Program-made: the position numbers and the translations under genes
Shown: positions 26,672 through 64,000 of the stretch, one piece after another
Numbering within the stretch: position 1 is the first letter of the stretch
Layout of the letters: every line of letters starts with the position of its first letter
Notes under the pieces: model-generated
The model's input: the letters and a program-made list of their open reading frames with translations, nothing else
Database searches by the model: none
Told to the model about the DNA's origin: nothing
From: Streptomyces sp. TG1A-60
GTDB lineage: Bacteria; Actinomycetota; Actinomycetes; Streptomycetales; Streptomycetaceae
Assembly (NCBI RefSeq): GCF_037201975.1
Contig: NZ_CP147520.1
Coordinates: forward strand, 2,976,001-3,040,000
Length of the DNA stretch: 64,000 bases
Reading direction: 5' to 3'

Positions 26672-27280
26672 GTGAGCACCCTCCCGGCCCGGCCCCCCGC
26701 GGGGGCCCGCCCGATGCGGGCCGACGCCCGCCGCAACCATGAGCGCCTGCTCACGGAAGCCCGCCTCGCCTTCGCGGCCCACGGCACCAACGCCTCCCTG
26801 GAGGACATCGCCCGCCGCGCGGACGTGGGCATCGGCACCCTCTACCGCCACTTCCCCAACCGCCAGGCGCTGCTGAGCGCGGTCTTCGAAGAAGCCGTGG
26901 GCGACCTCCTGGCCCGCGCCCGGACACAACTCGGCGCGGCCCGGCCCTGCTCCGCGCTGATCTCGTGGCTGCGCGACATCATCACCCACGCGGGTGAATA
27001 CCGCGGTCTCGCCCAGGCCCTGATGACGGTCTCCTACACGGACTCCCGCACCGAGGCGGAACACCCGTCGGACCTGGCCAGGTGCTGCGCCCCCATCCGG
27101 GAGGCGGGCACCGCCCTGCTCCAGCGGGCGCAGCAGGCGCACGCCGTACGCGACGACGTGTCCATCGGCGATCTGCTCCAGCTCACCCACGCGATCGCGC
27201 TGGCGGCCGAGGAGAGCCCGGACGACCCGGAGTTGGCCGACCGCCTGCTGACGCTGACCCTGCGCGGCCTGAGACCGTGA
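26672..27280 (+). CDS. TetR-family transcriptional regulator
   Basis: A 202-residue repressor-type protein. The N-terminal helix-turn-helix is NASLEDIARRADVGIGTLYRHFPNRQALL (about residues 40-66, quoted in parts: LEDIARRADVGIGTLYRHF). The C-terminal ligand domain is all-helical and of the SACE_7040/TetR_C type. I chose GTG 26672; TTG 26669 is also in frame. No divergent partner lies close by, so its target is unknown. Confidence 0.85.
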   Translation: MSTLPARPPAGARPMRADARRNHERLLTEARLAFAAHGTNASLEDIARRADVGIGTLYRHFPNRQALLSAVFEEAVGDLLARARTQLGAARPCSALISWLRDIITHAGEYRGLAQALMTVSYTDSRTEAEHPSDLARCCAPIREAGTALLQRAQQAHAVRDDVSIGDLLQLTHAIALAAEESPDDPELADRLLTLTLRGLRP

Positions 27281-27715: not shown

Positions 27716-28723
27716 TCAGCGGCGCCGCAGGTCCGCGACCCGGGCCGCGCGCTCCCTCTCCCGCTCACCGGCCGCCGACTGCTCCCCCAGGACCGCGGCG
27801 CTGCGCAGTTGCGGTGCCGAGCCGTGGACCTGGTTGCGGCGGGGGCCCGGCAGGGGCATGTCCCGGCGCGGCTGGCGCGCCGGGACGGGATCGCCTCCCG
27901 TACCACCGCCGCCGGCCGCCCCGGCCACGGAGATCTGCACGCCCTGGTCGGCCAGGGCCTGCAACTCGGTGACGGCACGGTCGTCGTTGCCCGGCGGGTC
28001 GTCGGTGACCAGGCGGGTGATCACATCGGTCGGCACCGTCTGGAACATCGTGTCGGTGCCGAGCTTGGTGTGATCGGCGAGGACGACGACTTCGGCGGCG
28101 GCCTGGACCAGCGCGCGGTCGACGGACGCCGACAGCATGTTGGACGTGGACAGGCCGCGCTCGGCGGTCAGTCCGCTCCCGGAGAGGAACGCCTTGGAGA
28201 CGCGCAGCCCCTGGAGGGACTGCTCCGCGCCGGAGCCGACCAGGGCGTAGTTGGAACCGCGCAGGGTGCCGCCGGTCATCACGACCTCCACACGGTTGGC
28301 ATGGGCCAACGCCTGGGCCACCAACAGGGAGTTGGTGACGACGGTCAGTCCGGGGACCCGCGCGAGCCGGCGTGCCAGCTCCTGCGTGGTGGTCCCCGCC
28401 CCGACCACGATGGCCTCGCCTTCTTCGACGAGGCTCGCGGCGAGGTCGGCGATGGCCGTCTTCTCGGCGGTCGCGAGATGAGACTTCTGCGGAAAGCCGG
28501 ACTCCCGCGTGAACCCGCCCGGCAATACCGCACCGCCATGCCGGCGGTCGAGGAGTCCTTCTGCCTCCAGAGCGCGCACGTCCCGCCGTACGGTCACTTC
28601 GGAGGTCTGGACGACGCGGGCGAGCTCACGGAGCGACACGGCTCCATTGGCCCGCACCATTTCGAGGATCAATTGGCGACGTTCTGCAGCGAACACGAAA
28701 CTGACAGTAACGCCAACGACCAT
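27716..28723 (-). CDS. DeoR-family transcriptional regulator
   Basis: A 335-residue regulator. The N-terminal DeoR helix-turn-helix is VSLRELARVVQTSEVTVRRD, followed by the typical wing (LDRRHGGAVLPGG). The sugar-phosphate-binding DeoRC domain (about residues 85-240) contains GAGTTTQELARRL and NSLLVAQAL. The C-terminal about 80 residues are low-complexity and Arg/Pro-rich. DeoR regulators sense phosphorylated sugars, so regulation of the nearby nucleoside genes is conceivable, but nothing in the sequence proves it. The start is ambiguous: ATG 28723 abuts AGGAG, and GTG 28696 is also possible. The MITE touches its 3' end. Confidence 0.85.
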   Translation of the reverse strand: MVVGVTVSFVFAAERRQLILEMVRANGAVSLRELARVVQTSEVTVRRDVRALEAEGLLDRRHGGAVLPGGFTRESGFPQKSHLATAEKTAIADLAASLVEEGEAIVVGAGTTTQELARRLARVPGLTVVTNSLLVAQALAHANRVEVVMTGGTLRGSNYALVGSGAEQSLQGLRVSKAFLSGSGLTAERGLSTSNMLSASVDRALVQAAAEVVVLADHTKLGTDTMFQTVPTDVITRLVTDDPPGNDDRAVTELQALADQGVQISVAGAAGGGGTGGDPVPARQPRRDMPLPGPRRNQVHGSAPQLRSAAVLGEQSAAGERERERAARVADLRRR

Positions 28724-30965: not shown

Positions 30966-30977
30966 CTACGCGCGTAG
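30966..30977. promoter_or_regulatory. palindromic operator CTACGCGCGTAG at punA
   Basis: A perfect 12-bp palindrome found identically upstream of deoC (36967) and add (48638) and, by eye, nowhere else in the window. It lies 12 bp before a -10-like TACCCT (30990-30995), covering the -35 position. That hexamer ends six bases before the GTG start of punA. Confidence 0.75.
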
Positions 30978-31001
30978 GCTCGCACCGGCTACCCTCATCG
31001 C

Positions 31002-31826
31002 GTGAACGCATCTCTTCTTCCGGACGACATCCAGGGCGACCCCTACGCCGCCGCCGACGCCGCCGCCGCGCGCCTGCGCGAGCTGACGGGCTCCGAGACC
31101 CACGACGTCGCCCTTGTGATGGGCTCCGGCTGGGCTCCGGCCGTGGACGCCCTCGGCGCCCCCGAGGCCGAGTTCCAGGTCACCGAGCTGCCCTGTTTCC
31201 CTCCGCCGGCGGTCGAGGGGCACGGCGGCAAGGTCCGCTCGTACAAGATCGGTGACAAGCGCGCGCTCGTCTTCCTGGGGCGCACCCACTACTACGAGGG
31301 CCGCGGCGTCGCCGCCGTCGCACACGGTGTCCGTACGGCCGTCGCCGCGGGCGTGAAGACGATCGTGCTCACCAACGGCTGCGGCGGTCTCCGCGACGGC
31401 ATGCGCCCCGGCCAGCCGGTCCTCATCAGCGACCACCTGAACCTGACGGCCACGTCGCCGATCGTCGGCGCGAACTTCGTCGACCTCACGGACCTCTACT
31501 CCCCGCGCCTGCGCACCCTGTGCAAGGAGATCGACCCGACCCTCGAAGAGGGCGTCTACGCGCAGTTCACCGGCCCCCACTACGAGACCCCGGCGGAGAT
31601 CCGCATGGCCCGCGTCATCGGCGCGGACCTGGTCGGCATGTCGACGGTCCTTGAGGCCATCGCCGCGCGTGAGGCGGGCGCGGAGGTCCTGGGCATCTCC
31701 CTGGTCACCAACCTGGCCGCAGGCATGACCGGCGAACCCCTCAACCACGAGGAGGTCCTCCAGGCGGGCCGCGACTCGGCCACCCGGATGGGCGCGCTGC
31801 TGACGCAGGTACTGGGTCGCCTGTAG
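31002..31826 (+). CDS. punA: purine nucleoside phosphorylase
   Basis: A 274-residue trimeric-type PNP that cleaves inosine and guanosine (and their deoxy forms) with phosphate to the base and (deoxy)ribose-1-phosphate. Phosphate and sugar motifs include VALVMGSGW near residue 36, [11 protein letters not shown] near residue 92 and [11 protein letters not shown] near residue 124. The base pocket region is [15 protein letters not shown] and the late motif [12 protein letters not shown]. The start is GTG 31002, with no ribosome site but a -10 hexamer six bases upstream, so the mRNA is probably leaderless. It carries the shared nucleoside operator. The mutase gene downstream is separated from it by a MITE. 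Confidence 0.93.
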
Positions 31827-36837: not shown

Positions 36838-36966
36838 GCCTCCGATTCTGCCCGACGCCCCGAACACCACGACGGCCGGCAGACGGCTGGAGACCGGGGT
36901 GCGCGCGGTACTTCCGCGCCCCTTCCGGTCCGGCCGCGCACATCCATGTCCGGGGCTGTACACCCG

Positions 36967-36978
36967 CTACGCGCGTAG
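36967..36978. promoter_or_regulatory. palindromic operator CTACGCGCGTAG at deoC
   Basis: Identical to the sites at punA and add. It ends one base before the -10-like TATGCT (36980-36985), which is six bases before GTG 36992. The site therefore lies inside the promoter spacer. Confidence 0.75.
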
Positions 36979-36991
36979 ATATGCTCGTCTG

Positions 36992-37951
36992 GTGACCATG
37001 TCCACAGCTGCACCCCACGCTCTCGCCGACGTCACCGCGTCCGACAGCACGCTGCGCCGCTTCCTGCACGGGCTGCCCGGCGTCGACCCGGTCGGCCTGG
37101 AGGCGCGCGCCGCCTCCCTCGGCACCCGTTCCATCAAGACGACCGCCAAGGCGTACGCCATCGACCTGGCCATCTCCATGGTCGACCTGACGACCCTGGA
37201 AGGCGCGGACACCCCGGGCAAAATCCGGTCCCTCGGCGCCAAGGCGGTCCTACCCGACCCCACCGACCGGACGGCCCCCGCCACGGCCGCGGTCTGCGTC
37301 TACCCGGACATGGTGCCCGCCGCCAAGGCGGCCGTCGCCGGCTCCACCGTCAAGGTCGCCTCCGTCGCCACCGCCTTCCCGGCCGGCCGCGCCCCCCTCG
37401 CCGTGAAGCTTGCCGACGTCCACGAGGCCGTCACCGCCGGCGCCGACGAGATCGACATGGTCATCGACCGGGGCGCGTTCCTCGCGGGGAACTACCTCAA
37501 GGTCCACGACGAGATCACCGCCGTGAAGGACGCCTGCGGCTCCACGGCCCGCCTGAAGGTCATCTTCGAGACCGGCGAGCTCTCGACGTACGACAACATC
37601 CGCCGGGCCGGCTGGCTCGGCATGCTCGCGGGCGCGGACTTCATCAAGACCTCGACCGGCAAGGTCGCGGTGAACGCCACCCCCGCCAACACCCTCCTGA
37701 TGCTGGAAGCAGTTCGCGACTTCCGCGCCCAGACCGGTGTGCAGATCGGCGTGAAGCCGGCCGGCGGCATCCGCACCACCAAGGACGCGATCAAGTTCCT
37801 CGTCCTGGTCAACGAGACCGTCGGCGAGGACTGGCTGGACAACCACTGGTTCCGCTTCGGCGCGTCCTCGCTCCTCAACGACCTGCTGATGCAGCGCCAG
37901 AAGCTGGCCACCGGCCGCTACTCCGGCCCCGACTACGTGACGGTGGACTGA
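36992..37951 (+). CDS. deoC: deoxyribose-phosphate aldolase
   Basis: A 319-residue class I aldolase that splits 2-deoxyribose-5-phosphate into glyceraldehyde-3-phosphate and acetaldehyde. The Schiff-base lysine is in ADFIKTSTGK near residue 228. The second catalytic lysine is in VGVKPAGGIRT-like GVKPAGGIRTTKDA near residue 258. An acidic partner lies in GADEIDMVIDRGAF. I chose GTG 36992 because it follows the -10 hexamer by six bases with no ribosome site (leaderless); ATG 36998 is the alternative. The aldehyde dehydrogenase gene begins five bases after its stop and would remove the acetaldehyde. Confidence 0.94.
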   Translation: MTMSTAAPHALADVTASDSTLRRFLHGLPGVDPVGLEARAASLGTRSIKTTAKAYAIDLAISMVDLTTLEGADTPGKIRSLGAKAVLPDPTDRTAPATAAVCVYPDMVPAAKAAVAGSTVKVASVATAFPAGRAPLAVKLADVHEAVTAGADEIDMVIDRGAFLAGNYLKVHDEITAVKDACGSTARLKVIFETGELSTYDNIRRAGWLGMLAGADFIKTSTGKVAVNATPANTLLMLEAVRDFRAQTGVQIGVKPAGGIRTTKDAIKFLVLVNETVGEDWLDNHWFRFGASSLLNDLLMQRQKLATGRYSGPDYVTVD

Positions 37952-37956
37952 TCCCC

Positions 37957-39393
37957 ATGGCATCCGCATTCGACTACGCCCCGGCACCCGAGTCCCGCGC
38001 GGTCGTCGACATCGCACCCTCGTACGGCCTGTTCGTCGACGGCGAGTTCACCGAGGCCGCCGACGGCAAGGTCTTCAAGACGGTCAGCCCCGCCTCCGAG
38101 GAGGTCCTCTCCGAGATCGCGCGGGCGGGCGAGGCGGACGTGGACCGCGCGGTGAAGGCGGCCCGCAGGGCCTTCGAGAAGTGGTCGGCCCTCCCCGGCG
38201 CGGAGCGCGCGAAGTACCTCTTCCGCATCGCCCGCATCGTCCAGGAGCGCTCCCGCGAACTGGCCGTCCTGGAAACCCTCGACAACGGCAAGCCGATCAA
38301 GGAGACCCGCGACGCCGACCTCCCCCTGGTCGCCGCGCACTTCTTCTACTACGCGGGCTGGGCCGACAAGCTCGACCACGCCGGGTTCGGCGCGGACCCC
38401 ACGCCGCTCGGCGTGGCGGGCCAGGTCATCCCCTGGAACTTCCCGCTCCTCATGCTCGCCTGGAAGATCGCCCCGGCGCTCGCGACCGGCAACACGGTCG
38501 TCCTGAAGCCCGCCGAGACGACCCCCCTCTCCGCGCTCTTCTTCGCGGACATCTGCCGCCAGGCGGGCCTCCCGAAGGGCGTCGTCAACATCCTCCCCGG
38601 CTACGGCGACACGGGCGCGGCCCTGGTCGCGCACCCGGACGTCGACAAGGTCGCCTTCACCGGCTCCACGGCGGTCGGCAAGGAGATCGCGAAGACGGTC
38701 GCGGGCACCCGCAAGAAGCTCACCCTCGAACTGGGCGGCAAGGGCGCCAACATCGTCTTCGACGACGCCCCGATCGACCAGGCCGTCGAGGGCATCGTGA
38801 ACGGCATCTTCTTCAACCAGGGCCAGGTCTGCTGCGCGGGCTCCCGCCTCCTGGTCCAGGAGTCGATCCAGGACGAGCTGCTCGACTCCCTGAAGCGCCG
38901 CCTCTCCACGCTCCGCCTCGGCGACCCGCTGGACAAGAACACGGACATCGGCGCGATCAACTCCGAGGAGCAGCTCACCCGTATCACCTCGCTCGTCGAG
39001 CGCGGCGAGTCGGAGGGCGCCGAGCGCTGGTCCCCGGCCTGTGAACTGCCCTCCGCCGGCTACTGGTTCGCCCCGACGCTCTTCACGAACGTCACCCAGG
39101 CGCACACCGTCGCCCGTGACGAGATCTTCGGCCCGGTCCTGTCGGTCCTCACCTTCCGTACCCCGGACGAGGCCGTCGCCAAGGCCAACAACACCCAGTA
39201 CGGCCTCTCGGCGGGCATCTGGACCGAGAAGGGCTCCCGGATCCTGGCCGTGGCGAACAAGCTCCGTGCGGGCGTCGTCTGGTCCAACACGTTCAACAAG
39301 TTCGACCCGACGTCGCCGTTCGGCGGTTACAAGGAGTCGGGCTTCGGCCGCGAAGGCGGTCGCCACGGCCTGGAGGCGTACCTCGATGTCTGA
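37957..39393 (+). CDS. aldehyde dehydrogenase, full length
   Basis: A 478-residue NAD(P)-dependent aldehyde dehydrogenase. The general-base glutamate is in LELGGKGANIVF near residue 254 and the nucleophilic cysteine in FFNQGQVCCAGSRLL near residue 289. The cofactor fold includes FTGSTAVGKEIAKTV. The C-terminus has the usual PFGGYKESGFGREGG. It is the second gene of the deoC operon, so oxidation of acetaldehyde from DeoC is the likely job. Start is ATG 37957. Its end overlaps the next gene by eight bases. Confidence 0.93.
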   Translation: MASAFDYAPAPESRAVVDIAPSYGLFVDGEFTEAADGKVFKTVSPASEEVLSEIARAGEADVDRAVKAARRAFEKWSALPGAERAKYLFRIARIVQERSRELAVLETLDNGKPIKETRDADLPLVAAHFFYYAGWADKLDHAGFGADPTPLGVAGQVIPWNFPLLMLAWKIAPALATGNTVVLKPAETTPLSALFFADICRQAGLPKGVVNILPGYGDTGAALVAHPDVDKVAFTGSTAVGKEIAKTVAGTRKKLTLELGGKGANIVFDDAPIDQAVEGIVNGIFFNQGQVCCAGSRLLVQESIQDELLDSLKRRLSTLRLGDPLDKNTDIGAINSEEQLTRITSLVERGESEGAERWSPACELPSAGYWFAPTLFTNVTQAHTVARDEIFGPVLSVLTFRTPDEAVAKANNTQYGLSAGIWTEKGSRILAVANKLRAGVVWSNTFNKFDPTSPFGGYKESGFGREGGRHGLEAYLDV

Positions 39394-40273
39394 CCGTCTC
39401 AGTGTGTTCAAGACCTACAAGCTGTACGTCGGCGGGAAGTTCCCGCGTTCCGAGAGCGGCCGGGTGTACGAGGTGACTGACTCGAAGAACAAGTGGCTGG
39501 CCAACGCCCCGCTCTCCTCCCGCAAGGACGCCCGTGACGCGGTCGTCGCCGCCCGCAAGGCGTTCGGTGCCTGGTCCGGCGCGACGGCGTACAACCGGGG
39601 CCAGGTCCTCTACCGCGTCGCGGAGATGCTGGAGGGCCGCAAGGGGCAGTTCGTCCACGAGGTCGCCGACGCCGAGGGCCTGTCGAAGTCGAAGGCCGCC
39701 GCCCAGGTGGAGGCGACGATCGACCGCTGGGTCTGGTACGCGGGCTGGACCGACAAGATCGCCCAGGTGGTCGGCGGCGGAAACCCGGTCGCGGGCCCGT
39801 ACTTCAACCTCTCCACCCCCGAACCGACGGGCGTGGTGGCCGTCCTGGCCCCCCAGGAGTCGTCCTTCCTGGGCCTGGTCTCCGTCCTCGCCCCGGTGAT
39901 CGCCACGGGCAACACGGCGGTCGTGATCGCTAGCGAGAAGTCCCCCCTCCCGGCACTGTCGTTGGGCGAGGTGCTGGCCACCTCCGACGTACCCGGCGGT
40001 GTGGTCAACGTCCTCTCCGGCCGTACGGCGGAGATCGCGGCCCCCCTCGCCGCCCACCAGGACGTCAACGCGATCGACCTGGCCGGCGCGGACGACGTGC
40101 TGGCGAAGGAACTGGAGATCGCCGCGGCCGACAACCTCAAGCGCGTCCTGCGTCCACAGCCTGTGGACGACTGGACGGCCGCGCCGGGCATCGACCGCAT
40201 GACGGCGTTCCTGGAGACGAAGACGGTGTGGCACCCGACGGGGTCGCTGGGCGCGTCGGGTTCGGCGTACTGA
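39386..40273 (+). CDS. aldehyde dehydrogenase-like protein lacking the catalytic domain
   Basis: A 295-residue paralogue of the preceding enzyme. It keeps the N-terminal oligomerisation and cofactor-domain parts (YKLYVGGKFPRSESGRVYEV, then GVVAVLAPQESSFLGLVSVL and IATGNTAVVIASEKSPLPAL). After ADDVLAKELEIAAADN it jumps to a short tail (RMTAFLETKTVWHPTG). The middle part with the catalytic Glu and Cys is missing. Codon usage is normal and the ATG at 39386 overlaps the upstream stop, so it is made together with the full enzyme. It is more likely a conserved non-catalytic subunit than a fresh truncation. Confidence 0.85.
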   Translation: MSDRLSVFKTYKLYVGGKFPRSESGRVYEVTDSKNKWLANAPLSSRKDARDAVVAARKAFGAWSGATAYNRGQVLYRVAEMLEGRKGQFVHEVADAEGLSKSKAAAQVEATIDRWVWYAGWTDKIAQVVGGGNPVAGPYFNLSTPEPTGVVAVLAPQESSFLGLVSVLAPVIATGNTAVVIASEKSPLPALSLGEVLATSDVPGGVVNVLSGRTAEIAAPLAAHQDVNAIDLAGADDVLAKELEIAAADNLKRVLRPQPVDDWTAAPGIDRMTAFLETKTVWHPTGSLGASGSAY

Positions 40274-42411: not shown

Positions 42412-42720
42412 CTCGCGCCCCCCGTCGTGGAGTTCCGGTTGCGGTGCCGTGCCGTGGTGCTCGTCCGCGCTTCTCCGGCTCCGCCCCTTCGTGCTGTCGG
42501 GCGGTGTTTCCTTGCCTGTGCCGAAAAGACTGCCCGCCCACTTTCATGGCCGTGTCCGCCGTCTGTCACAGACCTGTCACAGGGGTCGTGCCCAGGCGGG
42601 ACACAGGTTGATCACAGAGAAGAGTCGTGCGGCTACGCGATCGGCACGATCGTGTGCGCGTGAGGGGTGGGAGCGCTCCAACGGTCGATTCGGCGCCATG
42701 CCATGGGCCAGAATGAGCCC
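42412..42720. other. sigQ-afsQ1 divergent regulatory region
   Basis: A 309-bp region with no gene. It holds the AfsQ1 box described separately. A CAGAAT hexamer (42709-42714) lies six bases before the afsQ1 start. Confidence 0.6.
42565..42580. promoter_or_regulatory. AfsQ1 box GTCAC-N6-GTCAC
   Basis: GTCAC, AGACCT, GTCAC fits exactly the published AfsQ1 consensus GTnAC-n6-GTnAC. It lies 154 bp upstream of the sigQ start and 141 bp upstream of afsQ1, suiting activation of sigQ and autoregulation. Confidence 0.8.
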
Positions 42721-43398
42721 GTGCCTTCCCTGTTGCTGATCGAGGACGACGACGCCATCCGCACGGCCCTGGAGCTCTCACTGACGCGCCAGGGGCACCG
42801 TGTCGCCACCGCCGCCACCGGCGAGGATGGCCTCAAGCTGCTGCGCGAACAGCGGCCTGATCTGATCGTTTTGGACGTGATGCTGCCTGGAATCGACGGC
42901 TTCGAGGTGTGCCGGCGGATCCGGCGCACCGACCAGCTGCCGATCATCCTGCTGACCGCGCGCAGCGACGACATCGACGTCGTGGTGGGCCTGGAGTCCG
43001 GCGCGGACGACTACGTGGTCAAGCCCGTGCAGGGGCGGGTGCTGGACGCCCGTATCCGCGCGGTGCTGCGGCGCGGTGAGCGCGAGGCCAACGACGCGGC
43101 GACCTTCGGCAGCCTGGTGATCGACCGCGCGGCGATGACCGTGACGAAGAACGGCGAGGACCTCCAACTGACACCCACCGAGCTGCGGCTGCTCCTGGAG
43201 CTGAGCCGCCGTCCCGGACAGGCTCTGTCCCGGCAGCAGTTGCTGCGGCTGGTGTGGGAGCACGACTATCTGGGCGACTCCCGTCTGGTGGACGCGTGCG
43301 TGCAGCGGCTGCGCGCCAAGGTCGAGGACGTACCGTCGTCGCCGACCCTGATCCGTACCGTGCGCGGCGTGGGTTACCGGCTGGACGTTCCTCAGTGA
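42721..43398 (+). CDS. afsQ1: two-component response regulator AfsQ1
   Basis: A 225-residue OmpR-type regulator. The receiver domain (residues 1-118) has the acidic pocket LLIEDDD, the phosphoacceptor Asp in LIVLDVMLPGIDGF near residue 52 and the conserved lysine in VVKPVQG. The C-terminal winged helix (about 130-225) contains LTPTELRLLLELSRRPGQAL and VDACVQRLRAKVED. AfsQ1 responds to nitrogen (glutamate) conditions and controls antibiotic and development genes in S. coelicolor. Start is GTG 42721; the -10-like CAGAAT six bases upstream and no ribosome site suggest a leaderless mRNA. It is coupled to afsQ2 by a GTGA overlap. Confidence 0.95.
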   Translation: MPSLLLIEDDDAIRTALELSLTRQGHRVATAATGEDGLKLLREQRPDLIVLDVMLPGIDGFEVCRRIRRTDQLPIILLTARSDDIDVVVGLESGADDYVVKPVQGRVLDARIRAVLRRGEREANDAATFGSLVIDRAAMTVTKNGEDLQLTPTELRLLLELSRRPGQALSRQQLLRLVWEHDYLGDSRLVDACVQRLRAKVEDVPSSPTLIRTVRGVGYRLDVPQ

Positions 43399-47454: not shown

Positions 47455-48621
47455 TCAGTTCCGGTCGTTGGCAGAACCACTGGTGGAGGCCGTCTGCCGG
47501 AACAGCCATTCGGATTTCAACTCGGCGTATCCGGGCTTGATCACGTCATTGATCATGGCCAGTCGTTCATCGAAAGGAATGAATGCTGACTTCATAGCAT
47601 TGACGGAGAACCACTGCATGTCGTCGAGCGTGTAACCGAAGGCATCGACAAGGTGCTCGAATTCGCGGCTCATTCCGGTGTGGGACATCAGCCGGTTGTC
47701 GGTGTTCACGGTGGCCCGGAAGTGCAGTCGCCGCAGCAGTCCGATGGGGTGCTCGGCGTACGAACGGGCGGCGCCGGTCTGGAGGTTGGAGCTGGGGCAC
47801 AGCTCCAGCGGAATGCGCTTGTCGCGCACATAGGAGGCGAGGCGGCCGAGTTTCACGGAGCCGTCCTCGTGGACCTGGATGTCGTCGATGATGCGGACGC
47901 CGTGGCCGAGCCGGTCGGCGCCGCACCACTGCAGCGCCTGCCAGATGGAGGGCAGTCCGAAGGCTTCCCCGGCGTGGATGGTGAAGTGGTTGTTCTCGCG
48001 CTTGAGGTACTCGAAGGCGTCGAGGTGCCGGGTGGGCGGGTAGCCGGCCTCCGCGCCGGCGATGTCGAAGCCGACGACGCCGAGGTCGCGGTAGCGGTTG
48101 GCGAGTTCGGCGATCTCCAGGGCCCGGGCCGCGTGCCGCATGGCGGTGAGCAGGGCGCCGACCCGGATGCGGTGGCCGTTGTCCCGGGCGCGCCGCTCGC
48201 CCTGCCGGAATCCCTCGTTGACGGCCTCGACGACCTCTTCGAGGCCGAGCCCGCCGTCGAGGTGCTGTTCGGGTGCGTAGCGGACCTCGGCGTAGACGAC
48301 GCCGTCCGCCGCGAGGTCCTCGGCGCACTCGGCGGCGACCCGGACGAGCGCGTCGCGGGTCTGCATGACGGCGACGGTGTGGGAGAAGGTCTCCAAGTAC
48401 CGCTCCAGGGAACCGGAGTCGGCGGCCTCGCGGAACCACGCGCCGAGCCGGTCGGGGTCCGTTTCCGGGAGCCGGGGGGTGTAGCCGGAGGTGTGGGCGA
48501 GCTCGACGATCGTGCCGGGGCGCAGTCCGCCGTCGAGGTGGTCGTGCAGCAGAACCTTGGGCGCCCGGCGGATCTGGTCCGGGTCCGGGGTGCTTCCGGT
48601 CCGGTCGGTCTGGTTCGTCAT
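47455..48621 (-). CDS. add: adenosine deaminase
   Basis: A 388-residue zinc enzyme converting (deoxy)adenosine to (deoxy)inosine, which feeds PunA. The zinc motif is HDHLDGG near residue 27. The catalytic region is [10 protein letters not shown] near residue 216 with HG in RLGHGVRI near residue 240. The metal aspartate is in [10 protein letters not shown] near residue 308, where the family usually has NTDDP. Start is ATG 48621. A -10-like TATCGT ends six bases upstream and no ribosome site exists, so the mRNA is probably leaderless. The shared palindromic operator lies just upstream. Confidence 0.94.
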
Positions 48622-48637
48622 TTTCGCACGATAAAGC

Positions 48638-48649
48638 CTACGCGCGTAG
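48638..48649. promoter_or_regulatory. palindromic operator CTACGCGCGTAG at add
   Basis: Same 12-bp palindrome as at punA and deoC. On the minus strand it is followed after four bases by TATCGT (48633-48628), then six bases and the add start codon. Confidence 0.75.
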
Positions 48650-49604: not shown

Positions 49605-50597
49605 TCAACTGCCCAGCAGGTTGCCCCTTCTCGACAGCAGGAACCTCTTGAAAGCCGCCACGGGGGGTGTGTCCGGGTGGCCGTCGAGCCACGCCACGCC
49701 GATTTCCCGGGCGGCTCGGGGAGCGGTGACCGTCAGTTCCACGACGCCTGGTCGCGGGACGGCCGGTGGGGGCAGGAGGGCCACCCCCAGCCCGGCCGCC
49801 ACCAGGCCCCGCAGCGTCTCCGCCTCCTCGCCCTCGAAGGCGATGCGGGGTGTGAAGCCGGCCTCCTTGCAGAGGTCGTCGGTGATGCGGCGCATGCCGT
49901 AGCCGGGTTCGAGGGTCACGAAGGTCTCGTCGGAGGCCTCGGCGAGGCGGACGCGTTTGCGGGCGGCGAGGCGGTGGTCGGCGGGGACGACGAGACGGAG
50001 TTTCTGTTCGTCGAGGCGGCGGGCCACCAGGTCGGGGGCGTCCGGGACGGGGGACGTGAGGCAGAGGTCGAGTTCGCCGGCGCGGAGGCGTTCGAGCATG
50101 GCCTCGCCGTAGTTCTGGACCAGGCTGAAGCGGACGCGGGGATGTTCGGCGCGGAAGGCCTGGAGGAGGCCGGGGACCGTCTCGGCGCCCATGGTGTGCA
50201 GGAAGCCGAAGGCGACCTTGCCGGTGGCGGGGTCGGCGTCGGCGCGGACCTCGTCGGCGGCGCGCTCGATCTCGGCGAGGGCACGTTCGACGGATGCGTG
50301 GAAGGTGCGCCCGGCGTGGGTCAGGGAGACCGTGCGGCCCCGGCGGGCGAACAGGTCGACGCCGAGGTCCTGTTCGAGGCGGACCATCGCCCGGGAGAGC
50401 GTCGACTGGGGGACCCGCATCTCCTGCGCGGCCCGGGTGACGTGTTCGGTGCGGGCGACGCCGGCGAAGTAGGCGAGGCGCGGGGCCAGGCGCAGGACGA
50501 TGTCCTCGATCGCCTCGGAGTCATCGATGGCATAGCCATCGATCTGTTCTGTGTCACTGGACTGTGACAGCCGCCGCCCTGACCTCTGCTCATGCAT
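49605..50597 (-). CDS. LysR-family transcriptional regulator
   Basis: A 330-residue regulator. The N-terminal helix-turn-helix is near residues 45-75 (HVTRAAQEMRVPQSTLSRAM). The two-lobed inducer domain follows (GKVAFGFLHTMGAETVPGLL onward, with YGMRRITDDLCKEAGF). It is divergent from an MFS exporter and typically would activate it. ATG 50597 was chosen because it precedes the conserved part most reasonably; an ATG ten codons further upstream is also open. Confidence 0.87.
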   Translation of the reverse strand: MHEQRSGRRLSQSSDTEQIDGYAIDDSEAIEDIVLRLAPRLAYFAGVARTEHVTRAAQEMRVPQSTLSRAMVRLEQDLGVDLFARRGRTVSLTHAGRTFHASVERALAEIERAADEVRADADPATGKVAFGFLHTMGAETVPGLLQAFRAEHPRVRFSLVQNYGEAMLERLRAGELDLCLTSPVPDAPDLVARRLDEQKLRLVVPADHRLAARKRVRLAEASDETFVTLEPGYGMRRITDDLCKEAGFTPRIAFEGEEAETLRGLVAAGLGVALLPPPAVPRPGVVELTVTAPRAAREIGVAWLDGHPDTPPVAAFKRFLLSRRGNLLGS

Positions 50598-54243: not shown

Positions 54244-55474
54244 GTGCCGGATCAGGCAATGTTTGCCCTGTCGACGACGGCGCGTAGGCGTCGGTCGTCG
54301 GCATGGCGGTTTCGCCAGATGATGTAGCGGCGGATCATGCTGCCCTGTTCCTTGTGGTCGGCATGGTCGGTGCCGTCGAGGGTGAAGTAGCGCAAAGCGG
54401 TGAACTGGGCCTCGACGCGGTTGAGCCACGAGGAGTTCGTCGGGGTGTAGGCGATCTCGACGTTGTTCGCCGCCGCCCAGGTGCCGACCCGCTGGCACTT
54501 CTTCGTGGTCAGATGCGGGGAAAAGTTGTCGCAGACGATCGCGATGCGGACACCGGCCGGGTAGAGGGTGCGCAGGTAGCGGCAGAACTCCAGGAACTGA
54601 GTGCGTCGCTTGATGGGCTTGATGTGGCCGTAGAGCTTGTCCTTGGCCAGGTCCAGAGCGGCGAACAGGTGCCGCACCCCGCCGTAGCGGTTGTAGGTCG
54701 CCCGCCGACGACGACGTGGTTCACGGTCGGGGTCCTTGTACTTGCCGCCGCGTTCGGCCCACTGCCGGCCAGGGTGGGGCATCAGGTTGAGCGGCCCGAA
54801 CTCGTCCAGACAGAAGACGACTTCGGGCTCGCCCTCCTCGGGTATGACCTCGCCGTCGGCGATGGCATACAGGTGCTCGACGCGTGCCTTCTTGGCCGCG
54901 TAGTCCGGGTCGCGGGAGGTCTTCCAGGTCTTCAGGCGTTGAAAGGAGACGCCTTCCTCGCGGAGCAGGATGCGAAGGCCCTCGTGGCTGATGTCGTCGA
55001 CCACCCCCTCGGCGACCAGGAAGTCCGCCAGCTTGGTCAGACTCCAGGTCGAGAACGGCAGGTCGTGCTCGGCGGGCTTGGACTTGGCGATCTTCTTGAT
55101 CTCGCGACGCTCGGGCAATGTGAACGTCTTGGGCCGGCCGCCCTTGTACTTCGGATACAGCGACTCGAAGCCGTCGGTGTTGAAGTTGTGGATCACATCG
55201 CGGACCCGGTCGTCGCTGGTGAACGACACCTCGGCAATCTTCGCCACCGGCATGCCCTGCGCGGACAGCAGCACCATCTGGGCCCGCCGCCAGGTCACCA
55301 CCGACCCAGTCCCCCTGCGGATGATCCGCAGCAGCCGTCTGCCCTCGTCGTCATCGATCTCACGCACGCGTACTCGTTCTGCCACCCGGACAGAGTGACG
55401 GACACGCGCCGCCCGACACAGCACCCGGACGACGCGTCACATCACAACAGGGCAAACGTTCCCTGCTACGGCAC
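54244..55474. mobile_element. IS630-family insertion sequence
   Basis: A 1231-bp element. The terminal inverted repeats are about 30 bp, 25 of 30 matching: GTGCCGGATCAGGCAATGTT at the left and GTGCCGTAGCAGGGAACGTT at the right (other strand), both followed by TGCCCTGT. It is flanked by a TA duplication (54242-54243 and 55475-55476), the IS630/Tc1 hallmark. One transposase fills it. Confidence 0.92.
54252..55385 (-). CDS. IS630-family transposase
   Basis: A 377-residue DDE transposase. The N-terminal helix-turn-helix region (VAKIAEVSFTSDDRVRDVIH) is followed by a winged-helix-like part. The catalytic domain has Asp in VFCLDEFGPL, Asp in IVCDNFSPHLT and Glu in SSWLNRVEAQF. I chose GTG 55385, giving VAERVRVREIDDDEGRRLL; the frame is open further upstream. 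Its stop codon lies inside the terminal inverted repeat. It appears intact, so the element may still move. Confidence 0.9.
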   Translation of the reverse strand: MAERVRVREIDDDEGRRLLRIIRRGTGSVVTWRRAQMVLLSAQGMPVAKIAEVSFTSDDRVRDVIHNFNTDGFESLYPKYKGGRPKTFTLPERREIKKIAKSKPAEHDLPFSTWSLTKLADFLVAEGVVDDISHEGLRILLREEGVSFQRLKTWKTSRDPDYAAKKARVEHLYAIADGEVIPEEGEPEVVFCLDEFGPLNLMPHPGRQWAERGGKYKDPDREPRRRRRATYNRYGGVRHLFAALDLAKDKLYGHIKPIKRRTQFLEFCRYLRTLYPAGVRIAIVCDNFSPHLTTKKCQRVGTWAAANNVEIAYTPTNSSWLNRVEAQFTALRYFTLDGTDHADHKEQGSMIRRYIIWRNRHADDRRLRAVVDRANIA

Positions 55475-58226: not shown

Positions 58227-59519
58227 TCAGGCGATACGTTCCAACACCACCGGCGACGCCGTGAACGCCGTGCCCGGGGCCGCGATGTCGTACGAGCCCG
58301 TCACCGCCTCCAGGGCGTACCCGAAGCGCTCCGGGGTGTCGGTGTGCAGCGTGAGGAGGGGCTGGCCCTCCGTCACCGTGTCGCCGGGTTTGGCGTGCAT
58401 CTCGACGCCCGCGGCGGCCTGCACCGGGTCCTCCTTGCGGGCGCGGCCGGCGCCGAGGCGCCAGGCGGCGATGCCGATGTCGTACGCGTCGAGGCGGGTC
58501 AGGACGCCGGAGGCGGTCGCCTTCACCACATGCTGCTCGCGGGAGGTCGGCAGTTCGGCGTCCGGGTCGCCGCCCTGGGCGGCGATCATGCGGCGCCAGG
58601 TGTCCATCGCCGAGCCGTCGGCCAGGGCCTTCGCCGGGTCGGCGTCCTTCACGCCCGCCGCGTCGAGCATCTCGCGGGCCAGGGCGACGGTGAGTTCCAC
58701 GATGTCCGCCGGGCCGCCGCCCGCCAGGACCTCGACCGACTCCCGGACCTCCAGGGCGTTGCCCGCCGTCAGTCCCAGCGGGGTCGACATGTCCGTCAGG
58801 AGGGCGACCGTCCGCACGTCGTGGTCGGTGCCCAGGCCCACCATCGTGGAGGCCAGCTCGCGCGCGTCCTCGATCGTCTTCATGAAGGCTCCGCTGCCCA
58901 CCTTCACGTCCAGGACCAGCGAGCCGGTGCCCTCCGCGATCTTCTTCGACATGATCGAGGAAGCGATGAGCGGGATCGCCTCCACCGTGCCCGTGACGTC
59001 GCGGAGCGCGTAGAGCTTCTTGTCCGCCGGGGCAAGGCCGTCGCCCGCCGCGCAGATGACCGCGCCGACCTCGTCCAGGACGTTCAGCATCTCCTCGTTG
59101 GAGAGGAGGGCGCGCCAGCCCGGGATGGACTCCAGCTTGTCGAGGGTGCCACCCGTGTGGCCGAGGCCCCGGCCCGAGAGCTGGGGGACGGCCGCGCCGC
59201 AGGCGGCGACCAGGGGGGCCAGCGGGAGAGTGATCTTGTCGCCGACGCCGCCCGTGGAGTGCTTGTCGGCGGTGGGGCGGGACAGGGACGAGAAGTCCAT
59301 GCGCTCGCCGGAGGCGATCATCGCGGCCGTCCAGCGGGCGATCTCACGGCGGTCCATGCCGTTGAGGAGGATCGCCATGTTGAGGGCGGCCATCTGGTAG
59401 TCGGCGACCTCGCCGCGGGTGTACGCGTCGATGACCCAGTCGATCTGCTCGTCGCTGAGCGCGCCGCGGTCCCGCTTGGTGCGGATGACGGAGATGGCAT
59501 CCATCGACAACAGCGTCAT
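58227..59519 (-). CDS. deoA: thymidine phosphorylase
   Basis: A 430-residue pyrimidine nucleoside phosphorylase that splits thymidine or deoxyuridine with phosphate. The phosphate motif is KHSTGGVGDKITL near residue 84. The signature LSGRGLGHTGGTLDKLES is near residue 116, and SSIMSKKIAEGTGSLVLDVK near residue 180. The C-terminal domain (VVKATASGVLTRLDAYDIG) is of the pyrimidine-phosphorylase type. Start is ATG 59519 with GAAAGGA upstream. It is the last gene of the transporter-cdd-deoA operon, separated from cdd by a hairpin. Confidence 0.93.
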   Translation of the reverse strand: MTLLSMDAISVIRTKRDRGALSDEQIDWVIDAYTRGEVADYQMAALNMAILLNGMDRREIARWTAAMIASGERMDFSSLSRPTADKHSTGGVGDKITLPLAPLVAACGAAVPQLSGRGLGHTGGTLDKLESIPGWRALLSNEEMLNVLDEVGAVICAAGDGLAPADKKLYALRDVTGTVEAIPLIASSIMSKKIAEGTGSLVLDVKVGSGAFMKTIEDARELASTMVGLGTDHDVRTVALLTDMSTPLGLTAGNALEVRESVEVLAGGGPADIVELTVALAREMLDAAGVKDADPAKALADGSAMDTWRRMIAAQGGDPDAELPTSREQHVVKATASGVLTRLDAYDIGIAAWRLGAGRARKEDPVQAAAGVEMHAKPGDTVTEGQPLLTLHTDTPERFGYALEAVTGSYDIAAPGTAFTASPVVLERIA

Positions 59520-59589: not shown

Positions 59590-60003
59590 TCACTTGGTGA
59601 GATGGTCCGGGCCGAAGGCCTGGGGCAGCATCTCCGCGAGGGTGCGGATGCCCGCCGGGGTCTCCAGCAGCAGTTCCGGGCCGCCGAACTCGTAGAGCAG
59701 TTGCCGGCAGCGACCGCACGGGACGAGGATCTCGCCCCTGCCGTCCACACAGGTGAAGTGCGTGAGCCGGCCGCCGCCGCTGTTCTGCAGTTCCGAGACC
59801 AGCCCGCACTCCGCGCACAGGCCGATGCCGTAGGAGGCGTTCTCCACGTTGCAGCCGGAGACGGTCCGCCCGTCGTCGACGAGGGCCGCCACGCCGACCG
59901 GGTAGCCGGAGTACGGGGCGTACGCCCGGGACATGGCGTCCCGGGCCACCGTACGCAGCTTCTCCCAGTCGATGTCCACGGAGGCGGCGGGGGCGGAGTT
60001 CAC
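59590..60003 (-). CDS. cdd: cytidine deaminase
   Basis: A 137-residue tetrameric-type enzyme converting (deoxy)cytidine to (deoxy)uridine. The zinc cysteine and catalytic Glu are in LCAECGLVSELQ, and the other zinc cysteines in VPCGRCRQLLYE. The substrate segment is GCNVENASYGIGL. The GTG start at 60003 overlaps the upstream permease stop (GTGA), so it is translationally coupled to the transporter genes. Confidence 0.94.
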   Translation of the reverse strand: MNSAPAASVDIDWEKLRTVARDAMSRAYAPYSGYPVGVAALVDDGRTVSGCNVENASYGIGLCAECGLVSELQNSGGGRLTHFTCVDGRGEILVPCGRCRQLLYEFGGPELLLETPAGIRTLAEMLPQAFGPDHLTK

Positions 60004-61265
60004 TTGCCCTGTCCCTTCCGGTACGGCACACCGTTGGCCTTCGGCATCCGCAGCCGCTGCGCGGAGAGCGCGAGGACGATCAGTGTGATGACGTACGGCG
60101 TGGCGGCGACGACCTGGTTGGGGACCTCGTCGGTGGTGGCGTACCAGGCGAAGACGAGGGCGCCGACGACGAAGGTGATCGCGGCGGTGACGTACTTCTT
60201 GCGGACGGCCTGCCAGATCGCGCCGATGATCAGCAGCAGGGCACCGAGCAGCAGCAGGGCGTGGACGTTCCCGGAGCCGCCGCGCAGGTTGAGGCTGTCG
60301 GTGTAGCCGAAGAGGCCGGCGCCGAGGGCGAGGCCGCCCGGCATCCAGTTGCCGAAGATCATCGCGGCGAGGCCGATGAAGCCTCGTCCGCTGGTCTGGC
60401 CCTCCAGGTAGAAGGGGTTGGCGACGATGGAGAGGAAGACGCCGCCGAGGCCGGCCAGACCACCGGAGATGATCACGGCGAGGTACTTGTACCTGTAGAC
60501 GTTGACGCCGAGGGACTCGGCGGCCACCGGGTTCTCGCCGCAGGAGCGCAGCCGCAGACCGAAGGCGGTGCGCCACAGGATCCACCAGCTGGCGGGGATC
60601 AGCGCGACGGCGAGGAGGGTCAGCCAGGAGACGCTGGTGACCAGGCCGCCGAGCAGGCCCGCTATGTCGGAGACGAAGAACCAGCCCTTGGCGTTCAGGT
60701 CCCGCAGCGCGTCCGAGAGACCCGGCACCGTGAAGTTCCCGAGGGACTCCACCGGCGGGGACTGCTTGGCCGAGCCGCCCTGATGGCCCTCGAAGGCGAG
60801 GGGGGCGAGGTAGCGGGTGGCGCCGAGGGCGAGGATGTTGATGGCCACACCGGAGACGATGTGGTTGACGTTGAAGGTGACGGTGACGAAGGCGTGCAGC
60901 AGGCCGCCGATCGCGCCGCCGGCGATGCCGACCAGGACGCCGGTCCACGGGCCCCACTGGAAGCCGGCCCAGGCGCCGAACCAGGTGCCGAGGATCATCA
61001 TGCCTTCGAGGCCGATGTTGACCACGCCCGCGCGCTCGGCCCACAGACCGCCCAGGCCGGCGAGGCCGATCGGCACGGCGAGCTGGAGCGCGGTGGACAT
61101 CTGGCTGACGTTGGTGATGCCGTCGGCGCCGGTGATGATGCGGACGATCGAGGTGAGTGCCAGGACGCCGGCGATGACCAGCAGCAGCACGGGCAGCGAC
61201 AGCTTGCGGCCGGTCGGGGCGGCCGGCTGCAGCGTGGGCTGGTTGACGTCGGTTGCGGTGGTCAT
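60000..61265 (-). CDS. nucleoside ABC transporter permease (second)
   Basis: A 421-residue permease of the BMP-type nucleoside/ribose ABC family. About ten hydrophobic helices are visible. The conserved GLWAERAGVVNIGLEGMMIL at about residues 79-98 is a fingerprint of this permease group, as is RSCGENPVAAESLGVNVYRY, the coupling-helix region. Start is ATG 61265, overlapping the upstream permease stop (ATGA). It would form a heterodimeric channel with the product of the next gene upstream. Confidence 0.92.
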   Translation of the reverse strand: MTTATDVNQPTLQPAAPTGRKLSLPVLLLVIAGVLALTSIVRIITGADGITNVSQMSTALQLAVPIGLAGLGGLWAERAGVVNIGLEGMMILGTWFGAWAGFQWGPWTGVLVGIAGGAIGGLLHAFVTVTFNVNHIVSGVAINILALGATRYLAPLAFEGHQGGSAKQSPPVESLGNFTVPGLSDALRDLNAKGWFFVSDIAGLLGGLVTSVSWLTLLAVALIPASWWILWRTAFGLRLRSCGENPVAAESLGVNVYRYKYLAVIISGGLAGLGGVFLSIVANPFYLEGQTSGRGFIGLAAMIFGNWMPGGLALGAGLFGYTDSLNLRGGSGNVHALLLLGALLLIIGAIWQAVRKKYVTAAITFVVGALVFAWYATTDEVPNQVVAATPYVITLIVLALSAQRLRMPKANGVPYRKGQGK

Positions 61266-62388
61266 CGGCCAGCCACCTCCTTCTTGGCGTTGTTGTTGTC
61301 CGCGCCGAGGACGTGACCTGCGGCGAGCTCGGCGCCGACCCGGCGCTGCTGGCGGCGCAGACCCCACTCGCGCACGGTCTCGTACGAGACGACGACCGAC
61401 AGCACGATCAGGCCCTGCATGATGACCGCGATCTCCTTGTCGTAGCCGTGGAAGTCCAGCTCCGGCGAGGCCTTGTCGAGCCAGGCCCACAGCAGGGCGG
61501 CGAAGGCGATGCCGACCGGGCTGTTACGGCCGAGGAGGGCGATGCCGATACCGAGGAAGCCGATGCCGGTGGGGAAGTTGAGGCTGTAGGTGTGGGTGTC
61601 GCCGAGCAGGATCGGCAGGCCCGCGAGGCCCGCGACACCGCCGGAGATCAGCATGGCGGTGAGGACCATACGCCTGGGGTCGACACCGCTGGCCGCGGCG
61701 GCCGTCTGCGAGGCGCCGGAGGCGCGCAGGTCGAAGCCGAAGCGGGTGCGGCTGATGACGACCCAGTAGCCGACGCCGAGCAGGACGGCGAGGAAGACCA
61801 GGCCGTAGATCTCGCCGGCCTTGCCCATGTCGATGCCGGACACCCAGCCGGACTCGGCCATCTCGCCGGTGGTGTTGTTGTTGCCGACCTTCACGCCGAA
61901 GACGTTCGGCAGCCAGAGGTAGCCGATGACGGAGGTCGCGACCGCGTTCAGCATGATCGACGAGACGACCTCGCTGACCCCCCGGGTGACCTTGAGGACA
62001 CCGACGATGCCGGCCCAGAAGGCGCCGGTGAAGACCGCGGTGAGCAGCAGCAGCGGGATCTGGATGACCGCGGGCAGGTCCATGTGGGCGCCGACGATCG
62101 CGGTGATCATGGCGCCGAGGAGGTACTGGCCGTCGACACCGATGTTGAACAGGTTCATCCGGAAGCCGATGGCCACCGCGAGGGCCGCGATGTAGTACAG
62201 CGAGGCCTGGTTGATGATCCGGACCTGGATGTCGGAGAACGTGGCCTGCTCGAACATGATCGTGAACGGCTCGACCGGGTTCTTGCCGGAGGCGAGCAGC
62301 ACGATCGTGGTCAGCGCGAAGGCCACGGCGAGCGCGAGGACCGGTCCGGCCACCGCGAGGAGCACGCGCTCCCTGTCGAACTTCTTCA

Positions 62389-62389
<1 letters not shown>
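61262..62389 (-). CDS. nucleoside ABC transporter permease (first)
   Basis: A 375-residue permease with about ten hydrophobic helices. The segment GFRMNLFNIGVDGQYLLGAM near residue 75 and the loop RTRFGFDLRASGASQTAAAA near residue 215 match the YufP/NupP permease type. Start is ATG 62389, which overlaps the ATPase stop (TGATG). The order ATPase, permease, permease is typical of BMP-family nucleoside importers. Confidence 0.92.

Positions 62390-64000
<1,611 letters not shown>

Follow-up and report, generated by a model that had tools for sequence, protein, structure and literature searches.

A near-invariant 12-letter palindrome before nucleoside uptake and breakdown genes of Streptomycetaceae points to a predicted common regulator

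The 12-bp palindrome CTACGCGCGTAG stands as a near-invariant sign before genes for nucleoside uptake and breakdown in Streptomyces and its relatives, which points to a predicted regulator and to nucleic-acid recycling run as a unit. We consider it likely that the palindrome is the operator of one dimeric factor, probably a repressor, that acts in trans on a regulon for nucleoside scavenging. The DNA analysed (the window) is a stretch of 64,000 nucleotides from Streptomyces sp. TG1A-60 (genome G000), and the operator, promoter and gene features that enter the argument are listed here in window coordinates.

30966-30977, punA operator CTACGCGCGTAG, over the -35 position
30990-30995, plus strand, punA -10 hexamer TACCCT, from sequence, 12 nt after the palindrome
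31002-31826, plus strand, punA, purine nucleoside phosphorylase (PF01048), with a leaderless-looking GTG 6 nt past the -10
36957-36962, plus strand, deoC -35-like TGTACA, from sequence, 17 bp from the -10
36967-36978, deoC operator, filling the -35/-10 spacer
36980-36985, plus strand, deoC -10 hexamer TATGCT, from sequence, 1 nt after the palindrome
36992-37951, plus strand, deoC, deoxyribose-phosphate aldolase (PF01791), with a leaderless-looking GTG 6 nt past the -10
37957-39393, plus strand, aldehyde dehydrogenase (PF00171), 5 nt past deoC and probably in its operon
39404-40273, plus strand, second aldehyde dehydrogenase homologue (PF00171 in ORF 39041-40273; gene call), probably in the deoC operon
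48638-48649, add operator, in the spacer
48628-48633, minus strand, add -10 hexamer TATCGT, from sequence, 4 nt after the palindrome
47455-48621, minus strand, add, adenosine deaminase (PF00962), with a leaderless-looking ATG (48621) 6 nt past the -10
62389-63969, minus strand, ABC ATPase of the nucleoside transporter (PF00005), with its operator at 64046-64057 beyond the window
61262-62389, minus strand, ABC permease 1 (PF02653)
60000-61265, minus strand, ABC permease 2 (PF02653 in ORF 60000-61490; gene call)
59590-60003, minus strand, cdd, cytidine deaminase (PF00383 in a longer ORF; gene call)
58227-59519, minus strand, deoA, pyrimidine nucleoside phosphorylase (PF00591, PF02885 and PF07831 in a longer ORF; gene call)

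The original prediction held that the palindrome occurs identically upstream of punA, deoC and add, with no fourth copy seen. A search of the window reproduces the exact copies at 30966, 36967 and 48638 and adds no one-mismatch and two two-mismatch copies; the total of five sites with up to two mismatches is unremarkable beside a shuffle mean of 3.65, and it is the exact copies that are outliers. That no fourth copy is seen holds within the window only. Across the G000 genome (7,826,501 bases, one contig) there are exactly four exact copies, all inside 33 kb and in one pathway, and the fourth, the sole other exact copy in 7.83 Mb, lies at 64046-64057 in window-equivalent numbering, beginning 46 nt beyond the window edge. 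It stands before a row of genes for the ABC ATPase, both permeases, cdd and deoA, and upstream are two BMP lipoprotein genes; together with variant sites at the BMP genes, it bears out the guess that the motif would recur near the BMP lipoprotein operon to the right of the window. The reversed pattern, searched as a control, has no exact copy in the same 7.83 Mb. At one mismatch no excess is seen (16 further sites for CTACGCGCGTAG versus 23 for the reversed control), and from these counts about 0.6 exact copies per genome would be expected by chance. With four copies observed, the worry that the motif might be frequent at random is answered, and the shared site is confirmed as real and far above chance.

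Two further observations concern this region. Ahead of the ABC ATPase reading frame stands an AGGAG, followed after 8 nt by ATC or ATA in place of ATG or GTG (about 64015-64017; 4016-4018 in L025), and this stretch is kept in five distinct sequences, which hints at a rare AUC/AUA start codon. A DDE_3/HTH_32 transposase-like gene lies at 54252-55424, amid the nucleoside gene neighbourhood.

Conservation was assessed in 16 clusters from the family Streptomycetaceae, with genes incomplete in some, by taking the best match between -200 and +30 of each aligned gene start. (One M20 row, whose zero mismatches were an indexing artefact at a stretch edge, was excluded from these counts and from those for the BMP genes.) The site was present at the orthologous promoters: at punA in 16 of 16 clusters at no more than two mismatches (13 exact, the others with one, one and two), at deoC in 15 of 15 at no more than one mismatch (11 exact), at add in 13 of 13, always exact, and at the ABC ATPase in 9 of 9 at no more than one mismatch (7 exact). 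Ten other genes of the cluster served as controls in the same test, namely those for the phosphomannomutase-like protein, aldehyde dehydrogenase, cdd, deoA, permease 1, the DeoR and LysR regulators and a putative kinase, the gene before punA and the response-regulator gene at 42703-43398; their best match always had at least three mismatches. The arrangement in G012 is informative, as there a punA gene lies about 264 kb and a deoC gene about 4.1 Mb away from add and the site is found at each gene, twice at deoC. The add and transporter genes of this genome adjoin, both with sites, and the 19 kb left of add, the side where G000 has both, contain neither punA nor deoC. Since the dispersed genes each keep the site, a factor acting in trans is indicated. 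The same site thus recurs at several separate promoters of one pathway and is conserved across species, the pattern sought as the mark of a single regulon. The proposal of a nucleoside-catabolism regulon common to punA, deoC and add is therefore strongly supported, and the set of genes is larger than was claimed.

The exact site is a Streptomycetaceae trait in the samples drawn. All of the 21 Streptomyces genomes of a genus draw (G000 and 20 others) carry it, in three to six copies each, and a family draw of 81 genomes has it in 80, and in 16 of the 17 genera. In the one genome without it (G323), deoC has a form with one mismatch, and a form with two lies near punA. Of the 296 genomes in a class-wide draw, each of the 31 from Streptomyces (G000 included) has two to six exact copies, while only 10 of the 265 outside the genus have any, 12 copies altogether. 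Nine of the 12 non-family copies were examined, and no reference gene begins in the 800 nt downstream of any of them. When a 19-base string joining the palindrome to the deoC -10 was compared with 84,980 species, all 80 matches listed were in records named Streptomyces or Kitasatospora.

We now turn to the position of the site within the promoters. A TANNNT hexamer lies six bases before the GTG, GTG and ATG of punA, deoC and add, as had been described, and by this spacing of -10 and start codon all three promoters appear leaderless. If the transcription starts so inferred hold, the palindrome would span about -25 to -14 at deoC, about -28 to -17 at add and about -36 to -25 at punA. The prediction that it lies in or next to the -35/-10 spacer is accurate for deoC and add, where it is in the spacer, and not for punA, where it covers the -35 position. 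At the transporter the site is just upstream of the ribosome site. The distance from palindrome to -10 varies among promoters (1, 4, 12 and about 14 nt), and even at add it is usually 4 nt and about 12 nt in G010. Within the 80 deoC promoters among the matches listed, the search string itself fixes the palindrome one base ahead of TATGCT; at the -35 position, 17 bp from the -10, TGTACA is the most frequent hexamer (30/80), and a GTG follows six bases past the -10 in 71.

Leaderlessness was taken to be part of the regulon's character. The starts do look as described, but as a hallmark the feature is not supported. Outside the family punA was found in 36 of 38 genomes, and of the 30 loci examined 20 look leaderless and none has the palindrome at two mismatches or fewer; leaderless-looking punA genes being common without the palindrome, we regard leaderlessness as incidental. 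At the transporter and at purSQL the site stands before genes that do have leaders. In G004, G006 and G171, all Streptomyces genomes, the aligned punA start lies 61-115 nt past the palindrome, versus 22-26 nt elsewhere, with palindrome and -10 retained despite the distant start. Partial text of two transcriptome papers puts the leaderless share of primary transcripts in S. coelicolor at about 21% (PMC4895711) and reports that leaderless mRNAs of S. griseus are enriched in purine nucleotide metabolism (PMC8914203); none of the four S. griseus motifs described in the accessible part of the latter is this palindrome.

These positions bear on how the site would work. The varying offsets over the core promoter favour a repressor that acts by occlusion: a dimer on the site would sit over the -35 element, the -35/-10 spacer or the transcript start and so block RNA polymerase, and a metabolite derived from nucleosides or nucleic acids would release it. 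The geometry accordingly fits the dedicated repressor first proposed, repression itself being our reading of that geometry. MerR-type activators bind between -35 and -10, where the site also lies at deoC and add, and the factor could instead be an activator. We judge this improbable, as the deoC spacer has a normal length of 17 bp, the distance to the -10 differs among genes and even at add, and at the transporter the site comes immediately before the ribosome site. Nor is the palindrome at all likely to be a core-promoter element or an RNA hairpin. It does lie close to the inferred transcription start at punA, deoC and add, but an element or hairpin is opposed by the variable distance to the -10 and by the 30 non-family punA promoters that lack it, and at these three genes a hairpin is further disfavoured because the site would be upstream of the inferred +1 and hence untranscribed.

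Variant forms of the site occur at further genes. Three of the one-mismatch sites of G000 lie a short way before purS (about 58 nt), a gene for a secreted 5'-nucleotidase (about 70 nt) and a carbon-nitrogen hydrolase gene (36 nt), the last heading a row that encodes an aminotransferase, a PucR regulator, a second such hydrolase, an amidohydrolase and a cytosine/uracil-type permease. The make-up of this row suggests an operon for reductive pyrimidine breakdown; in NCBIfam the first hydrolase matches N-carbamoylputrescine amidase best, with a score under the cut-off. Orthologues were sought in 30 family genomes for each gene (found in 30 for purS, 21 for the 5'-nucleotidase and 27 for the hydrolase), and a site with at most one mismatch was scored between -250 and +30 of the start. 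Such a site precedes purS at 25 of 30 loci (shuffled-palindrome mean 0), three of these matches (L213, L217 and L218) having another flank and position and perhaps arising by chance, while G318, G322 and G328 have no purS site within two mismatches. It precedes the secreted 5'-nucleotidase gene at 20 of 21 loci (shuffled mean 0.02) and the pyrimidine operon in 22 of 30 rows (shuffled mean 0), these rows representing 27 genomes and including three second copies without the site among the eight rows that lack a one-mismatch site. The form CTACGCGCGTTA is present at all 12 BMP lipoprotein genes in eight genomes, at distances of 41 to 282 nt upstream of the aligned start. It is therefore strongly supported that the regulon is wider than proposed, taking in the BMP/ABC transporter and, by variant sites, purSQL, the 5'-nucleotidase and the pyrimidine operon.

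Of the further one-mismatch sites of G000, two are at a second secreted 5'-nucleotidase gene and one is at a secreted nuclease-like gene, where it falls within the first codons and was discounted. The remaining ten include one before rpoB and one before an M23 peptidase gene, and several inside coding sequence; the rpoB site is about 30 nt before the called start (L187, 1501-1512). The second 5'-nucleotidase gene (L398, 1-1750) has its two CTACGCGCGTTG sites 67 bp apart, and in G000 it seems frameshifted between the signal sequence and the catalytic domain.

We presume that all of the variants are bound by the same protein. It strikes us as rather unlikely that similar sites are read by separate factors (two or more), with the exact palindrome recognised by one and the purSQL and pyrimidine variants by another. 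Each gene class keeps its own variant: mostly CTAC[TC]CGCGTAG at purS, mostly CTACG[GT]GCGTAG at the pyrimidine operon, CTACGCGCGTTG at the 5'-nucleotidase and CTACGCGCGTTA at the BMP genes. Moreover, the pyrimidine operon holds a PucR-type regulator of its own, and an XRE-type gene lies within about 5 kb of it in all eight Streptomyces genomes compared (G000 and seven others). However, no XRE-type gene was found within about 6 kb of the operon in four of four other genera, and three of these keep the site. The exact form also stands in place of the variant at purS in G135 and at the 5'-nucleotidase in G232, as expected if one protein reads both. Because purine synthesis and nucleoside breakdown need not be co-repressed, another role or a second factor is possible at purSQL. 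Regarding the XRE-type gene itself, it is small and lies beside a methionine-aminopeptidase-like gene near the pyrimidine operon (L396, 10811-11086), and in G105 an XRE-type gene is close to an unlinked exact palindrome (L091).

Outside the punA-to-transporter cluster, 20 exact copies were collected from family genomes: four at a second adenosine deaminase gene, one at a 5'-nucleotidase, one at purS, three at purN, three at a secreted hydrolase family and eight elsewhere with no evident nucleotide role (L015, L086, L087, L088, L091, L146, L150 and L151). The purN copies lie 150 to 250 nt before the called start, beside purH (G328, G378 and G380), and those of the hydrolase family just upstream of the gene (G011, G339 and G378). 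At the second, unlinked adenosine deaminase gene of four genomes (L065, L082, L090 and L093) the exact palindrome occupies codons 3-7 and, being inside the first codons, is possibly a coding coincidence. The secreted hydrolase family (L089, 2220-3653; L148, 247-1974; L149, 2050-3804) has no function assigned, and of 8000 candidates scored for it 4041 are relatives at E<=1e-20; we regard it as a candidate for extracellular nucleic-acid breakdown.

Three genes of the neighbourhood encode possible regulators.

27716-28723, minus strand, DeoR-family regulator (PF08220 and PF00455), the best local candidate
49605-50597, minus strand, LysR-family regulator
26714-27280, plus strand, TetR-like gene, named from sequence alone

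The LysR protein was rejected on co-occurrence: G320, a genome with four exact sites, gave no LysR match at E<=1e-40, and in G323 and G330 the top matches share only 44% and 52% identity with it. The TetR-like gene was likewise set aside, as just 6 of 24 family genomes have it next to the DeoR match, and G162, with two exact sites, has only 43-46% TetR matches, on contigs other than that of its DeoR gene. With both local competitors disfavoured, the DeoR-family protein might tentatively be taken for the regulator, as a repressor sensing (deoxy)ribose phosphates like E. coli DeoR. Its gene lies about 2.3 kb from punA and is near punA in all ten further Streptomyces clusters, a match 75-100% identical is present in 24 of 24 family genomes searched, and the recognition helix is unchanged in the family rows shown. 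The protein has the DeoR helix-turn-helix and DeoRC sensor (PF08220 and PF00455) that mark the E. coli type, and its sole sequence relative in the PDB at E<=1e-3 is a deoxyribose operon repressor. Against this, three non-family genomes have relatives, 69-72% identical, that keep the SEVTVRRD helix core with no palindrome at their loci, and these (L134-L136) adjoin sugar-ABC genes with GATCG-like repeats upstream. The DeoR gene's own promoter has at least three mismatches in 16 of 16 family clusters, and the protein scores under every NCBIfam cut-off shown (75.1 bits versus 244 for the DeoR equivalog NF007961). We take SCO4920 to be the counterpart of the gene at 27716. SCO4920 is a DeoR-family regulator according to partial text of PMC4848846, and the accessible part of a 2010 network study (PMC3224704) places it in a module with bldN and sigma-factor genes and not in a nucleotide module. 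Considered by themselves, the GATCG-like repeats may mark a different operator. We therefore find the DeoR protein a doubtful regulator and give the larger share to an unlinked, unnamed factor. Self-control is not seen in the sites: none of the four exact G000 copies stands before a regulator gene, and no regulator promoter appears among those neighbours of the 20 exact copies outside the cluster that are annotated.

The regulon predicted for this factor would have as its core the import of nucleosides (BMP lipoproteins and ABC transporter), their deamination (add, cdd), phosphorolysis (punA, deoA) and the breakdown of deoxyribose phosphate (deoC and the aldehyde dehydrogenases), and the variant sites would extend it to the secreted 5'-nucleotidase, the pyrimidine-catabolic operon and purSQL. 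A bolder reading, to which we give an even chance, is that one Streptomycetaceae factor runs nucleic-acid recycling end to end and couples the salvage of DNA and RNA from dying hyphae to the supply of purines; its reach would extend from secreted nucleotidases and the secreted hydrolase through the import of nucleosides and the breakdown of purines and pyrimidines to purine biosynthesis (purSQL and, in some genomes, purNH). During development Streptomyces reuse nucleic acids from hyphae that lyse, and many of them produce nucleoside antibiotics. The open literature searched, which left out most subscription journals, yielded no description of the site or regulon and no regulator for the nucleoside recycling pathway. 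Two papers of that literature contain the 12 letters of CTACGCGCGTAG; by their titles they concern DNA structure and GapR. As for deoC, SCO4914 is a deoxyribose-phosphate aldolase whose protein is under-represented in an argR mutant (partial text of PMC3293853), and its promoter is occupied and repressed by WblC under erythromycin (partial text of PMC7157823). The strictness of the site should make the regulator directly findable, by affinity capture with a short bait. The site also predicts regulon members, including the hydrolase family of unassigned function, and offers a compact operator for studying the control of leaderless Streptomyces promoters.

Compared with known systems, punA, deoC and add share with the leaderless Streptomyces promoters described in the accessible part of PMC4895711 a TANNNT about 6 nt before the initiator codon. 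The difference is that this arrangement occurs without the palindrome and outside the regulon signal. In E. coli, DeoR and CytR place nucleoside uptake and catabolic genes under a common palindromic operator. The likeness lies in such an operator and in a local candidate from the DeoR protein family; the GC-rich 12-bp operator found here presumably does not match that of E. coli DeoR, and the set of genes, unlike that of DeoR/CytR, also includes purSQL, a secreted nucleotidase and pyrimidine breakdown. Bacterial PurR regulons have their site before de novo purine genes and salvage genes, and the system described here resembles them in having a site at de novo purine as well as salvage genes, but differs in that the genes with exact sites nearly everywhere are those for catabolism and uptake.
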